A DNA stretch of 64,000 nucleotides. Origin: an uncultured Ectothiorhodospiraceae bacterium (lineage in GTDB: Bacteria; Pseudomonadota; Gammaproteobacteria; UBA6429; Thiohalophilaceae). The stretch spans positions 90,858 to 154,857 of the forward strand of contig CAMYJG010000001.1 in the NCBI GenBank assembly GCA_947258695.1. The letters are read 5' to 3'. The first letter of the stretch is position 1, and each line of letters opens with the position of its first letter. The translations under genes were made by a program, and so were the position numbers. A model generated the notes under the pieces. That model did not search any database. It was not told the DNA's origin and saw only the letters and a list, made by a program, of their open reading frames with translations. Of the stretch, positions 58,379-63,574 are shown one piece after another.

Positions 58379-59218
58379 TTAGACTACGTATGATTCTTGA
58401 TTATTTTCAAACCGTTCATGACAACGTTTTGAACAAAAATAGTATTTTTTTCCTTTATATTGACTTACTAAATTAGCAGTCCATTCATCAACATGCATCC
58501 CACAGACAGGATCTTTCACCCATGAATGCTTCTCAGATTTACGGTCATGTAACTGGCCATCTTCAAGCCATAAAATACGATCAGCAATATCTTCAACTCG
58601 TGGGTCATGAGTCACCATAATTACCGCATAACCTTCATCGCGGGCAATATCATGCAATATCATCATGACTTCCTGCCCTGTCTGTGAATCCAGGTTACCG
58701 GTGGGTTCATCTGCCAGAATTAGCTTAGGTTCATTGATCAATGCTCGAGCTATTGCCACACGCTGTTTTTCTCCACCAGATAGGGTACTGGGAAACGCAT
58801 TACGGCGATGAGCCAGGCCGAGTTTTTCGATAAGTCTATTTGCCCGATTTTTAACTCCCACTCTACCCTCAGGTCGTAATTGTGAAGGAAACAAGATATT
58901 TTCTTCGACAGTCAACGCATCCAGCAAGTTAAAGGTTTGGAAAATAAAACCAATTTTTAATGCCCTGATATTAGGCAGATCTGATTCCTTTAATTCTGTA
59001 ACATTAATACCTTCAATCTCAATATTGCCCTGTGAAGGTTTTAATAAACTACCTAACATAGATAATAATGTTGTTTTACCTGAACCAGATGGCCCCATCA
59101 CTAACACCAGTTCACCAGCTTTGATAGAAAGAGAGACATTATCTACTGCTTTTACTTCGGTATGACCACTACCAAACACCTTTGACAAATTACTGGCTTT
59201 TAAGATCGGTATCATCAT
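58379..59218 (-). CDS. ABC transporter ATPase fused to a C-terminal YHS metal-binding domain
   Basis: Residues 1-225 form a MacB/LolD-type ATPase with Walker [10 protein letters not shown] (42-50), Q-loop FIFQTFNL, signature [15 protein letters not shown] (146-160), Walker [13 protein letters not shown] and H-loop VTHD. After a short linker, residues 236-275 are a YHS/TRASH-type domain: DPVCGM (236-241), [12 protein letters not shown] (259-270), with Cys239, Cys262, Cys266 and His267 as likely ligands. YHS domains usually occur in copper/silver P-type ATPases and metal chaperones; attachment to an ABC ATPase is unusual. It lies 9 bases after its permease gene. Confidence 0.9.
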
Positions 59219-59227
59219 TATTTTCCC

Positions 59228-60337
59228 TCACACATGAAAAGCTGTTGCTGGATCCATTCTAAGTACAAGATATGTAGGTAATATTGCACCCAGTATTGTT
59301 ACTAACAATGCAATAATACCTAGTTGCATCAATGCTTCGTTAGATACCAGGATGGTTAACTGCGGCACTAATGATGGAATACCTGGCACCACTAACAAAG
59401 CAAATAAAACAGCTAATAGAAAACCTAACAACGTCACTATTCCTGTCTGTATCATGACACTGTAAAAAATTGAAATGTTCGACGCACCAAGTGCCTTAAT
59501 AATGGCAATCTCTCTACGCTTACGCATCACCAGGGAATAAGCACTAAATCCTACGATCAAAGCAGCAAGGACCGAGCAAATCACTGTCATCATCACAATA
59601 ACTTCAACACCCATTTGTCTAGCCAGGGCAAAATCATTAGCTATAAAATCATCATGTGGCAAAGCATTGATTTTTTCTACTTCCTCCATAATTTTGCTGG
59701 CTAACACCTTGGGTTCAACATTGTCATGCGCATCGACAAGTAAGTAACTATAGGTACCCGATGACGACAAAATATCTTCCAAATCTGAAAATGGAACAAA
59801 TAAAACAGAATTCGCAGATGAAAATGTACCCTTTGACAATCCCACAACGTTAAATTCTTTATCTGTAATACTTAGCGTATCGCCAATTTTTACGCCAGTA
59901 ATGTGAGATAACACATCAGGTATTATTGCTTCCCTGGGATTTTGAATTTGTCGCCCTGCACTCATGGCCCATGGCCCTGCCCTTTTCGCATCAGGTAACA
60001 GTCCCACGATAAACGCAAACATCTCCGTATCTCCAGCTCTTATCACATTATTAAGATATAAAATGGGTGTAACATTTTTGACTTCAGGCATACTGGCAAT
60101 CTTGTCAGCTTTCCAGTCCCACACAAAAGACATGGCCATATGCATATTGCCTACTCCGGACTGCATCACCCAGACATCCGGCTTGACGTTATTAGGATAA
60201 GCAATTATTTGTTCAGTCTCACCACGCCAAACGGCATCAAAAAAAATCACCAGAATAAATGCGCAAGCAATGCCTGCTGCACTTCCGATTAAACTACCTT
60301 TTTGGCTAAATAGTGATTTCCATGCCCATTTCAGCAT
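59228..60337 (-). CDS. FtsX/MacB-type ABC permease, second of pair
   Basis: A 369-residue permease: one N-terminal membrane helix (about 15-35, LIGSAAGIACAFILVIFFDAVW), a large periplasmic domain (about 40-245), and three C-terminal helices (about 250-355) with RKRREIAIIKALGASNISIFYSVMIQ, the FtsX coupling motif. Such mechanotransmission-type permeases move lipoproteins, peptides or small molecules across the envelope rather than importing ions. It starts two bases after the first permease gene ends. Confidence 0.85.
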   Translation of the reverse strand: MLKWAWKSLFSQKGSLIGSAAGIACAFILVIFFDAVWRGETEQIIAYPNNVKPDVWVMQSGVGNMHMAMSFVWDWKADKIASMPEVKNVTPILYLNNVIRAGDTEMFAFIVGLLPDAKRAGPWAMSAGRQIQNPREAIIPDVLSHITGVKIGDTLSITDKEFNVVGLSKGTFSSANSVLFVPFSDLEDILSSSGTYSYLLVDAHDNVEPKVLASKIMEEVEKINALPHDDFIANDFALARQMGVEVIVMMTVICSVLAALIVGFSAYSLVMRKRREIAIIKALGASNISIFYSVMIQTGIVTLLGFLLAVLFALLVVPGIPSLVPQLTILVSNEALMQLGIIALLVTILGAILPTYLVLRMDPATAFHV

Positions 60338-60339
60338 TT

Positions 60340-61470
60340 TTATGCTCCCTGGAATGCCATAACAGGATCAGAACCTCTAATGATATGCAAAGGTATTAAT
60401 GAACCCAGGAAAGAAAAAACCAGGCAGGCTAGCAACGTATGAATGAAAACGATTGGTTCAAAAAGCCGGATTAAATACACAGGAGAATTCGTTTCTATAT
60501 AAACTGAAAGACTAAGCGCTATAAAAATACCAATTGGTATTGCAATTAGCAGTAAAATTAGTGATTGCGATAAGACTGCAAAAAATAGTTTTTTAAACGG
60601 GAAACCCAATGCTTTCAATACAGCAAAGTTTTTAATCCTGCTACGAATATCTGCATACATTATCAAGCCAACGACCAACAGGCCAATCACATAGCCAATA
60701 GTCACTAACAACCCCATGATAGGTTTATAAAACACCTTCCCCATACTCACATCGTTATTAGATAGTTGCTCCGGGGTAACTACATCAACCGTTGACACTT
60801 TTGCTTCAATATCTTTGGCAATCTTGTCGCGATCTGCCTGAGCATCGAGCTCAACTAACATATAACTTAAAAGTGGGAAGGTACTGAGATCTGGCGCAAT
60901 CTGTGACTCAATAAATAAATCAAGCATGCCATCATAATTAATGAAGGCAAATGGCATCATGAACGCGGCTTCATCAGTAAAGCCAGATACCTTGAAGGTA
61001 AAATCTGTGACAGAAAAGTTATCGCCCAGCTTTATGTTATATTTTTTTGCCAGTGAATGATCTATAACAATATCCCGAGCATCTTTTATGCCTTTACCAA
61101 GAATAATACGAGATGGGCCACCTTTTGTATCATAAACCAGCACATAAACGGGGGTGCGTATATTGTCTTTATTATAAATGATGGGCACAGCTGTTATTGG
61201 GTGCGCTTCTTTAACACCAGGCACATCTTCAATATCCATTCGTGATAACTGGGGAATAGACGATCGAACAGCAATAAAATTTGTTACTCCTGACTGAGTG
61301 GCAATTAAATCAGCATTACGTTTGAGAACAATTTGTTTGAGTTGGTAGTACTGGCCTTGTTCAAAACCTTCAAGCACAAGGATGACAGCAATAACCGATC
61401 CTATAGCCAATGCTGTAAGCAGGGCCTTTATTTTATCATATTGTAATTGTCGCCAAGCCAGCCTAAACAC
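60340..61470 (-). CDS. FtsX/MacB-type ABC permease, first of pair
   Basis: A 376-residue permease paralogous in architecture to its neighbour: N-terminal helix (about 15-34, KALLTALAIGSVIAVILVLEGF), periplasmic domain, and three C-terminal helices with RIKNFAVLKALGFPFKKLFFAVLSQS. The periplasmic part includes TQSGVTNFIAVRSSIPQ, which parallels MQSGVGNMHMAMSF in the second permease, so the two probably arose by duplication and form a heterodimer. This resembles DevC-type pairs. It is first in the operon, after a 145-base gap. Confidence 0.85.
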   Translation of the reverse strand: MFRLAWRQLQYDKIKALLTALAIGSVIAVILVLEGFEQGQYYQLKQIVLKRNADLIATQSGVTNFIAVRSSIPQLSRMDIEDVPGVKEAHPITAVPIIYNKDNIRTPVYVLVYDTKGGPSRIILGKGIKDARDIVIDHSLAKKYNIKLGDNFSVTDFTFKVSGFTDEAAFMMPFAFINYDGMLDLFIESQIAPDLSTFPLLSYMLVELDAQADRDKIAKDIEAKVSTVDVVTPEQLSNNDVSMGKVFYKPIMGLLVTIGYVIGLLVVGLIMYADIRSRIKNFAVLKALGFPFKKLFFAVLSQSLILLLIAIPIGIFIALSLSVYIETNSPVYLIRLFEPIVFIHTLLACLVFSFLGSLIPLHIIRGSDPVMAFQGA

Positions 61471-61615: not shown

Positions 61616-61837
61616 TTATCCTGATGTAATATCAGGTTGAAACCCTTTGGCACGGAGTTGCTCCATCAAAATAGTCGGCATATTTTCGTGGCTCTCATAT
61701 TCAATTGTAAGATTATGTGGATCATGCCGAGGATGCTCCACATCAACCACATGCGGCAAAGCTAAAATCTCATGTTTTAGTTTTACGATTTCTCGAGTGG
61801 TAAGAGATTCCCCAATATATACATTAACACAATTCAT
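61616..61837 (-). CDS. Small HMA-like (ferredoxin-fold) protein without CxxC
   Basis: A 73-residue protein with a predicted beta-alpha-beta-beta-alpha-beta order: VNVYIGE, TREIVKLKHEILALPHV, VDVEHPR/LTIEYES, NMPTILMEQLRAKGFQPDI. That is the heavy-metal-associated fold, and VVDVEH...LTIEYE resembles HMA strands. The canonical CxxC is missing; only Cys3 and three His residues (HPRHDPH) could bind metal. It sits alone between the propeller gene and the permease pair on the same strand. The fold call is by eye. Confidence 0.6.
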   Translation of the reverse strand: MNCVNVYIGESLTTREIVKLKHEILALPHVVDVEHPRHDPHNLTIEYESHENMPTILMEQLRAKGFQPDITSG

Positions 61838-61964: not shown

Positions 61965-62954
61965 TTAATTCACAATCGCCATCTGATGTGCTTCACCAGC
62001 AGGCAGTTTAATTTCATTAATCACTTTCAATGTTTTTTGATCAATAACCCAGATAACGGGTTTCTTCCGACTTGAAACATAAACCTTACCTGTCCCTGTT
62101 ATGGTATTTAAATGGTACGGCGCAGGCGACAAAGGTAATTCGCGCTTTTTACCATTTTCAGTATTTATAGCAACCAGCTTGTTTTCTTTTTTACTACTTA
62201 CAAAAAGCGTTGTCCCGTCATCGCCAATATCTAGTCCATGCACAGCTTTTCCGATTTTGTAAGTAGAGGTAATGTTTCCTGTTTTCACCGATATAGCTGA
62301 TACTTGCCCTTTTCTAGGATTTGATACAAATATGGTTTTTTGATCTCCAGAAAAAGCCATGTGTTCTGGAGCAGGCCCTGATTCAAGCGTTCTAGCAACC
62401 TTCCAGCTTGATATATTGATCTCACTCAAGTTGTTTGCACCCGTATTACTAACATAGGCTCGTTTACCATCTTTTGTTACAAGAATATAATTTGGTACTC
62501 GTCCTGTTTTAATCGTTTTAATTATTTCATTGTTTTCAAGATCAAGAACACTGACATTACCTTTCATGGCATGCGTGGATAAAACATACCGTCCATCTGG
62601 TGTTATTCCCTGGTGATGAGTCCAGCCTGATACTGAGATGGTTGACATTACATGACCGTGCGCAGGGTGAATAAAATACAGTTTACTGTTTGGTGTATTC
62701 GCAGGCTTTCCTTTTGGAATAGGCGTTTGCTTAAGACTGCCTGCTATAAGGTATTCACCATCGGGTGTTGCCACTAAACCATGTGGATTATCAACATCAG
62801 AATAACTGGCTGTAATTTTATCTGTCGCAGCATCTACGGCTATCACCTGGTTTCCTGATCCAAGAGGGATGTAAACCGTAGGAGATGCATAAACAAAAGA
62901 CGAAAGTATTGAGCAAACACCTGTTATTAAATATTTCTTTATTTTAATATTCAT
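61965..62954 (-). CDS. Secreted YncE/YVTN-type beta-propeller with recurring His
   Basis: A signal peptide (about 1-23, ending VYA-S) leads a 329-residue propeller of about seven blades, each with an x-DG-x turn and YVS/FVS strands. At the same point in nearly every blade a His occurs: NPHGLVATPDG, THHQGITPDG, PEHMAFSGD, VHGLDIGDDG, PYHLNTITG and AHQMAIVN; only PNYILVTKDG lacks it. Such a ring could bind a metal at the central channel. The cytochrome c gene lies 27 bases upstream, so both are probably periplasmic partners. No enzymatic activity can be assigned. Confidence 0.8.
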   Translation of the reverse strand: MNIKIKKYLITGVCSILSSFVYASPTVYIPLGSGNQVIAVDAATDKITASYSDVDNPHGLVATPDGEYLIAGSLKQTPIPKGKPANTPNSKLYFIHPAHGHVMSTISVSGWTHHQGITPDGRYVLSTHAMKGNVSVLDLENNEIIKTIKTGRVPNYILVTKDGKRAYVSNTGANNLSEINISSWKVARTLESGPAPEHMAFSGDQKTIFVSNPRKGQVSAISVKTGNITSTYKIGKAVHGLDIGDDGTTLFVSSKKENKLVAINTENGKKRELPLSPAPYHLNTITGTGKVYVSSRKKPVIWVIDQKTLKVINEIKLPAGEAHQMAIVN

Positions 62955-62981
62955 TTATTTATCCTTATTTCATAATTAAGT

Positions 62982-63332
62982 TCAGTGATTCAAATTTAGC
63001 GTAAGTAAAACGCGCATATACTCAATCGATTTTAAAAGTTGCTTATCAGATAACTTATCATTACCACCCTTTGGCGGCATCATCATTGATGCGCCAGGCG
63101 TTTCAATTCCTTTTTTTATTAACTTCAATAGTTTGTTATTAGATTTTTTTGACCATGTTTGGTTTTCAACCAAATCTGGAACACCTGGCATAGAACCTCT
63201 TCCATCATCACCATGACATAAAGCACAGTTTTGCATATATATATCTTTTCCTGATTCCGCATTGGCAAGATTCTCATAAAAGAAGATAATTACAAACATA
63301 TAAAATAAAGTGATAATTTTGGATATTTTCAT
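62982..63332 (-). CDS. Periplasmic monohaem cytochrome c
   Basis: A signal peptide (about 1-26, ANAESGK) precedes the haem motif CALCHGDDGRGS (class I cytochrome c). The distal Met is likely one of those in GASMMMPPKGGNDKLSD. The C-terminal helix SIEYMRVLL completes the fold. Length 116. It lies just upstream of the propeller gene and 14 bases downstream of the SHOCT gene, pointing to one transcript. Confidence 0.88.
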   Translation of the reverse strand: MKISKIITLFYMFVIIFFYENLANAESGKDIYMQNCALCHGDDGRGSMPGVPDLVENQTWSKKSNNKLLKLIKKGIETPGASMMMPPKGGNDKLSDKQLLKSIEYMRVLLTLNLNH

Positions 63333-63346
63333 TAACTCAGTTCCAT

Positions 63347-63574
63347 TTATTTATTTTCAATATTTTTTCGCAACCTTCGATATTCAGCTTCGTTTATCTC
63401 ACCACTTGCAAGACGTTTATTTAGAATATCAAGTACTTCATCTTCATTATTTACGCTTTTCCCATTATTCCCTGAGATAACATTTGCAAGCAGATAGAAT
63501 ATAGCGAAAATAATTAACAACCAGATAATCCACATAAAACCACCACCAAAAATACCATGCCAACCGTCCATCAT
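63347..63574 (-). CDS. SHOCT-domain small membrane protein
   Basis: A 75-residue protein: a Gly/Trp/Met-rich start (MMDGWHGIFGGGFMW), one membrane helix (about 14-34, IIWLLIIFAIFYLLANVIS), and a C-terminal SHOCT motif (about 46-73; LDILNKRLASGEINEAEYRRLRKNI). Such proteins are common near copper and other metal-response genes. The ATG has a TGAG site upstream. Function unknown; SHOCT motifs probably mediate oligomerisation. Confidence 0.8.
   Translation of the reverse strand: MMDGWHGIFGGGFMWIIWLLIIFAIFYLLANVISGNNGKSVNNEDEVLDILNKRLASGEINEAEYRRLRKNIENK

Follow-up and report, generated by a model that had tools for sequence, protein, structure and literature searches.

A secreted seven-bladed propeller with a NosZ-like histidine ring, encoded beside a cytochrome c in copper-resistance clusters

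A small secreted beta-propeller encoded in the window (the whole stretch of 64,000 nucleotides that was analysed) carries seven conserved histidines which, in a structural model, ring the rim of its central channel, and their distribution over the blades resembles that of the CuZ site of nitrous-oxide reductase (NosZ). In copper-resistance clusters it is encoded on its own next to a cytochrome c, which makes it likely that this is a copper enzyme, or a protein that holds copper, not studied before. The explanation that accounts best for the evidence as a whole, with a probability of about one half, is a periplasmic multi-copper propeller that serves to detoxify copper and works in redox together with the cytochrome c. 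CuZ, the site in nitrous-oxide reductase, is often described as unique. Members of the propeller family are currently annotated as 'YncE family protein', and a search of the open literature returned no copper role of YncE-like propellers and nothing on the family itself.

The propeller gene and its product

The propeller is the last gene of a minus-strand run consisting of a SHOCT protein, a cytochrome c and the propeller (63574..61965; Table 1); the genes upstream of this run are cut because the contig, and with it the window, stops on that side. Inspection by eye indicates a Sec-type signal peptide at the start of the protein. With YncE the propeller shares the fold and a generic annotation: it belongs to the Pfam family YNCE (PF21783; 53 bits, gathering score 27.1) but falls far short of the equivalog model for E. 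coli YncE (NF052280; 67 bits, cut-off 400), and none of the NCBIfam equivalog models passes its own cut-off with this protein. An AlphaFold (AF2) model based on 62 aligned sequences has a mean pLDDT of 95.8 and a pTM of 0.90. When this model was used for a Foldseek search, generic YVTN and other seven-bladed propellers were returned, the best being 1l0q (TM 0.84), with NosZ as one among many and not singled out by the fold. The protein gives no cupredoxin match in Pfam, and its chain closes at residue 329 with the inner strand of blade I.

Table 1. Features of the propeller gene and its surroundings in the window
Feature	Position	Strand	Remarks
Propeller gene	61965..62954	(-)	329-aa secreted seven-bladed beta-propeller, YncE/YVTN class; ORF, Pfam, AF2 model
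H323, ring His of blade I (Velcro closure)	61986..61988	(-)	AHQM; 62/62; strand E326-328
H58, ring His of blade II	62781..62783	(-)	PHG; 62/62; strand E57-62
H113-H114, His doublet of blade III	62613..62618	(-)	THHQG; both 62/62; just before strand E115-117
N155, ring position of His-less blade IV	62490..62492	(-)	PNY (N155/Y156); N in 60/62
H198, ring His of blade V	62361..62363	(-)	PEH(M); 61/61 with a residue there; strand E199-201
H239, ring His of blade VI	62238..62240	(-)	VHG; 62/62; strand E238-243
H281, ring His of blade VII	62112..62114	(-)	PYH(L); 62/62; strand E279-285
H128, eighth invariant His	62571..62573	(-)	62/62; blade III, where the second strand (E123-128) ends
H96-x-x-H99-x-H101 cluster	62652..62669	(-)	In the c-d turn of blade II; about 55/62 have it
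Single-haem cytochrome c	62982..63332	(-)	116 aa, secreted, CALCH; directly upstream of propeller; Pfam Cytochrome_CBB3 2.8e-13
SHOCT-domain membrane protein	63347..63574	(-)	First of run; Pfam SHOCT 27.5 bits vs 27
73-aa protein	61616..61837	(-)	Downstream of propeller; by eye perhaps HMA-like; Pfam gives no significant match
Two MacB/FtsX-type ABC permeases	60340-61470, 59228-60337	(-)	Pfam
ABC ATPase with C-terminal YHS domain	58379..59218	(-)	Pfam ABC_tran, YHS 58.6 bits

A conserved ring of seven histidines

Blades are numbered here from the Velcro closure, where the C-terminus provides the inner strand of blade I. The innermost strand of a YVTN propeller blade begins after a P-x-G turn. 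Histidine occupies position x or x+1 of this turn in six of the seven blades of the propeller, which gives the layout H,H,HH,–,H,H,H for blades I to VII. The original prediction, made from the letters alone, had placed His at an equivalent position in six of seven blades, and all six motifs that it named (PHG, THHQG, PEHM, VHG, PYHL, AHQM) are indeed present. Seven of the 11 histidines among the 304 residues of the mature protein fall into the 14 slots at the blade starts (P = 2e-8 by the hypergeometric test, a guide value, as the slots were picked from the motifs themselves). None of 20,001 shuffles brought His into six or more blades, whichever of 21 registers was tried. The AlphaFold model puts each ring histidine either at the beginning of an innermost strand or one to three residues ahead of it, and hence on the modelled rim of the central channel rather than on the outer loops, a location that the original prediction had named as speaking against it.

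Conservation had been proposed as a check on the ring, and the outcome is clear-cut: all seven ring histidines are kept in the 62 homologues aligned, as is H128, the one exception being a gap at H198 in a single sequence, and this invariance holds down to 33% identity. Eleven further homologues, found on alphaproteobacterial and Halomonas plasmids and in genomes sampled across the phylum, retain the ring down to about 28% identity. A purely structural ring that binds no metal, with His merely tolerated in the PxG turns, might be expected of a common fold in which these turns accept many residues. Such a reading is rendered very improbable by the invariance of the ring, by the residues M, Q, L and K that fill the equivalent slots of the solved YVTN propeller 1l0q, and by a motif scan of NirF-like control propellers in related genomes, which found no such His ring. 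The ring position of blade IV, Asn in 60 of the 62 sequences, is Tyr in the other two, Glu in two distant homologues and Asp at the equivalent place in L-NosZ, discussed below.

Accessory histidines occur outside the ring. From propeller topology, H128 is expected on the ring side. The HxxHxH cluster is typical of close homologues (gamma/betaproteobacterial type) and missing in distant members. Most of the latter, the alphaproteobacterial type among them, bear a conserved DEHAAHH-type insertion instead (L107-L111, L148-L150, L152-L154). It is located in blade II, in the b-c loop that follows the second strand, which by the same topology is on the ring side. The cluster and the insertion are plausible copper-collecting elements.

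Relation to NosZ and L-NosZ

The ligands of CuZ in NosZ are distributed as H490 in blade I, H132/H133 in blade II, H181 in blade III, none in blade IV, H323 in blade V, H378 in blade VI and H429 in blade VII (PMC11573801). In both proteins, seven histidines come from six blades, blade IV is empty, and the C-terminal strand that completes blade I contributes a His of its own; only the place of the doublet differs, blade II in NosZ (H,HH,H,–,H,H,H) and blade III in the propeller. Counting from the doublet rather than from the Velcro closure would falsely set the empty blade of the propeller apart from that of NosZ. The comparison with CuZ put forward in the original prediction is therefore borne out, down to the single HH pair and the same empty blade IV. 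NosZ differs from the propeller in having a C-terminal cupredoxin domain with CuA.

The blade-III doublet has a counterpart in clade III NosZ (L-NosZ). Two such proteins (L120, L121), both above the NF052460 cut-off, read EPH / DLHE / (I,V)HH / PDY / PHG / PLH / GH, which corresponds to H,H,HH,(D/N),H,H,H; with these two sequences taken to represent the L-NosZ family, the doublet falls in the same blade as in the propeller, and Asp stands where the propeller family has Asn. Looked at more finely, the residue used (x or x+1) is the same in the two families in blades I, III, IV and VII, exchanged in V and VI, and ambiguous in II; because of the difference in blades V and VI, the fine geometry of the two rings is not the same. 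L-NosZ moreover runs on beyond the propeller into a C-terminal part that bears a cupredoxin-like CxxxC motif; in the propeller family nothing follows the propeller, and its genes lie in copper islands. A detailed description of L-NosZ was not found in a literature search.

Against the L-NosZ cut-off of 700 bits (NF052460), the propeller scores 64 and a paralogue in its own genome 75, compared with 750-790 for L-NosZ members, those identified in this analysis lying at 753-786. A comparison of the propeller profile with L-NosZ by hhalign reaches 97.5% probability, with the best alignments in a rotated blade register, and the profile alignment to NosZ is weak. Since the alignment to L-NosZ is strong but blade-rotated, the common layout may reflect either shared ancestry or convergence on one scaffold. 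In the PDB, chains of thiocyanate dehydrogenase (TcDH) and of NosZ are matched by the family profile at about 1e-5 to 1e-4.

No NosZ, NosL or NosD was detected in the propeller's own genome, which is 95% complete; several propeller-bearing relatives do have nos genes, and the propeller and nos systems occur independently of each other. Both findings speak against N2O reduction, and likewise against a CuZ cluster with a sulfide bridge assembled by the Nos machinery. Lacking a CuA domain, scoring far below the family cut-offs and encoded in a genome in which no nos genes were found, the propeller is not a NosZ. A stand-alone nitrous-oxide reductase in which the cytochrome c replaces the CuA domain would accommodate the CuZ-like plan, the doublet placed as in L-NosZ and the several host species that are denitrifiers by name, but it is made very unlikely by the same missing nos genes, the low L-NosZ score, the rotated and weak alignments and a genomic setting of copper resistance.

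Relation to thiocyanate dehydrogenase (TcDH)

TcDH is a three-copper propeller enzyme (PMC9456337, PMC6504805) that is exported by the Tat route (PMC6504805) and passes its electrons to cytochrome c (PMC9456337); its active-site residues are H135, H136, H206, D314, H381, H437, H482 and H528 (PMC6504805). Compared by published residue lists, TcDH, a copper enzyme, resembles the propeller in its periplasmic location, in a similar His series round the channel and, as proposed here, in having a cytochrome c partner. It differs in being larger, in its Tat export, against a Sec-type signal on the propeller, and in having the HH pair first in the series. Going by residue order, Asp314 of TcDH seems to correspond to the blade in which the propeller family has Asn. 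The propeller might, like TcDH, oxidise a small sulfur or nitrogen compound with the cytochrome c as acceptor, and many hosts of the family are sulfur oxidisers. Such an activity is improbable in light of the difference in export signal, of the apparent one at Asp314, and of the occurrence of the family in Accumulibacter and Rubrivivax and in the copper islands of Halomonas and members of the Roseobacter group. When TcDH was sought with the family profile in genomes of sulfur oxidisers and denitrifiers, the matches outside the family resembled propellers of NirF, NirS or NosZ type by size and motif, apart from one further His-rich propeller. A distant propeller frame in Thioalkalivibrio denitrificans (L133, G390:C122; 100 bits to the family profile) carries His at many of its blade starts, in the motifs KHG, PHY, AHHG, GHA and GHV, and possibly represents a second His-ring propeller family.

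Copper islands and the adjoining cytochrome c

The genomic setting of the family is copper resistance, a point that the original prediction did not contain: a copper gene lies nearby in 75 of 84 loci collected from alpha-, beta- and gammaproteobacteria. Forty-two of the loci are well flanked (at least 5 kb on both sides); among these, a copper gene is present in 37, a copper P-type ATPase in 35, a SHOCT protein in 25 and a multicopper oxidase in 21, as counted with profiles run on six-frame ORFs and with neighbour classes taken from sequence clustering or, for annotated plasmids, from RefSeq names. As a rough estimate, where a 3 Mb genome encodes a few ATPases of this kind, a random gene would lie near one in only a few per cent of cases. 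On annotated plasmid islands containing the propeller, genes for CueR, CopB, the multicopper oxidase (MCO), YHS, SHOCT and DUF5676 recur.

Cytochrome c is found in 28 of the 42 well-flanked loci, and in 23 it is encoded within 1.5 kb on the same strand, so that the adjacent cytochrome pointed out in the original prediction is a real and recurrent feature. The profiles found no cytochrome c on the six-frame ORFs of the other 14 loci, and it is therefore perhaps not an obligate partner.

The own-genome paralogue of the propeller, 75% identical, follows CusC, CusB, CusA, DUF411, SHOCT and cytochrome c genes and precedes a second cytochrome c; the order SHOCT, cytochrome c, propeller is common to this locus and the window. 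The paralogue island (L112, G000:C5:28000-47000) is of copper/silver type; its CusB has a C-terminal CusF-like part, and glutaredoxin-like, YHS and DUF5676 genes come after the second cytochrome c.

Proposed function

The propeller quite probably has a role in copper resistance, and its ring very probably binds copper. That the ring holds a multinuclear centre, with more than one ion, is favoured by a narrow measure. In the mechanism proposed, the propeller would take up excess periplasmic copper, and a multi-copper centre at the channel rim would be built on H323, H58, H113/H114, H198, H239 and H281. N155 would occupy the empty blade, and the plan would be that of CuZ in NosZ and of the tri-copper site of TcDH. 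Cu(I) would be oxidised and the electron handed to the small cytochrome c encoded beside the propeller, the 116-aa protein being the proposed electron partner. The propeller would in this way be a cytochrome-coupled, oxygen-independent counterpart of the multicopper cuprous oxidases. The recurrent cytochrome c, taken together with the electron transfer from TcDH to cytochrome c, suggests by analogy a redox role, for which we judge the chances to be slightly below even; Cu(I) as the specific substrate is a more tentative proposal. The islands often have a multicopper oxidase, so that a second Cu(I) oxidase would be partly redundant, which counts against this explanation, as do the 14 loci in which no cytochrome c was found and the different His register from L-NosZ in blades V and VI.

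The main competitor is a copper buffer or metallochaperone without redox function, in which the ring, H128 and the His-rich loop would hold periplasmic copper for efflux or for cuproproteins, and the cytochrome would be a separate gene of the island. A precedent exists in AztD, an eight-bladed zinc metallochaperone propeller with a three-His zinc site in its pore, encoded in a zinc ABC operon (PMC6689063); it has in common with the propeller a periplasmic location, pore histidines and a role in metal homeostasis. The prevalence of copper islands and the DEHAAHH or HxxHxH segment also suit a buffer. An invariant ring of seven histidines, by contrast, seems more than a chaperone needs, the recurrent adjoining cytochrome c points to redox, and the score with the AztD model (NF038015) is 27.6 bits against a cut-off of 400. 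A buffer or chaperone consequently appears the less probable of the two, as a sizeable minority possibility beside the redox-active multi-copper propeller.

Should the redox-active propeller be a stand-alone, seven-His multi-copper cuprous oxidase, independent of O2, linked to cytochrome c and with the CuZ plan in place without Nos maturation genes or CuA, it would constitute a new class of copper enzyme; that much is doubtful. If true, the seven-His propeller site would have a second use, in a small single-domain protein on copper-resistance islands and plasmids, and would offer a simple model for loading such sites without the Nos machinery. It could also explain detoxification of Cu(I) where multicopper oxidases have no oxygen.

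Neighbouring genes and distribution

Downstream of the propeller in the window lie the 73-aa protein and the MacB-type ABC genes. The ATPase is of LolD/MacB type and, with the two MacB-like permeases, makes up an unusual metal-linked exporter. Only a few loci besides this one have MacB-type ABC genes near the propeller, and it is uncertain that the permeases and the YHS ATPase belong to the same functional unit as the propeller. On the other side of the run, a minus-strand gene cut at the contig end (63652-63999) looks by eye like the C-terminal part of an FAD-dependent oxidoreductase; a similar oxidoreductase is present in the paralogue island (L112:2639-3787).

The propeller family is rare: a sample of 399 genomes from across the phylum has it in 4, and a set of 96 relatives in 20, a patchy distribution that fits mobile resistance islands. 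On plasmid pP73B of Celeribacter indicus (L154), a homologue has TniQ/TniB and a gene for a Mu-type transposase next to it and a copper P-type ATPase nearby; judging by this locus, the propeller may travel on transposons.
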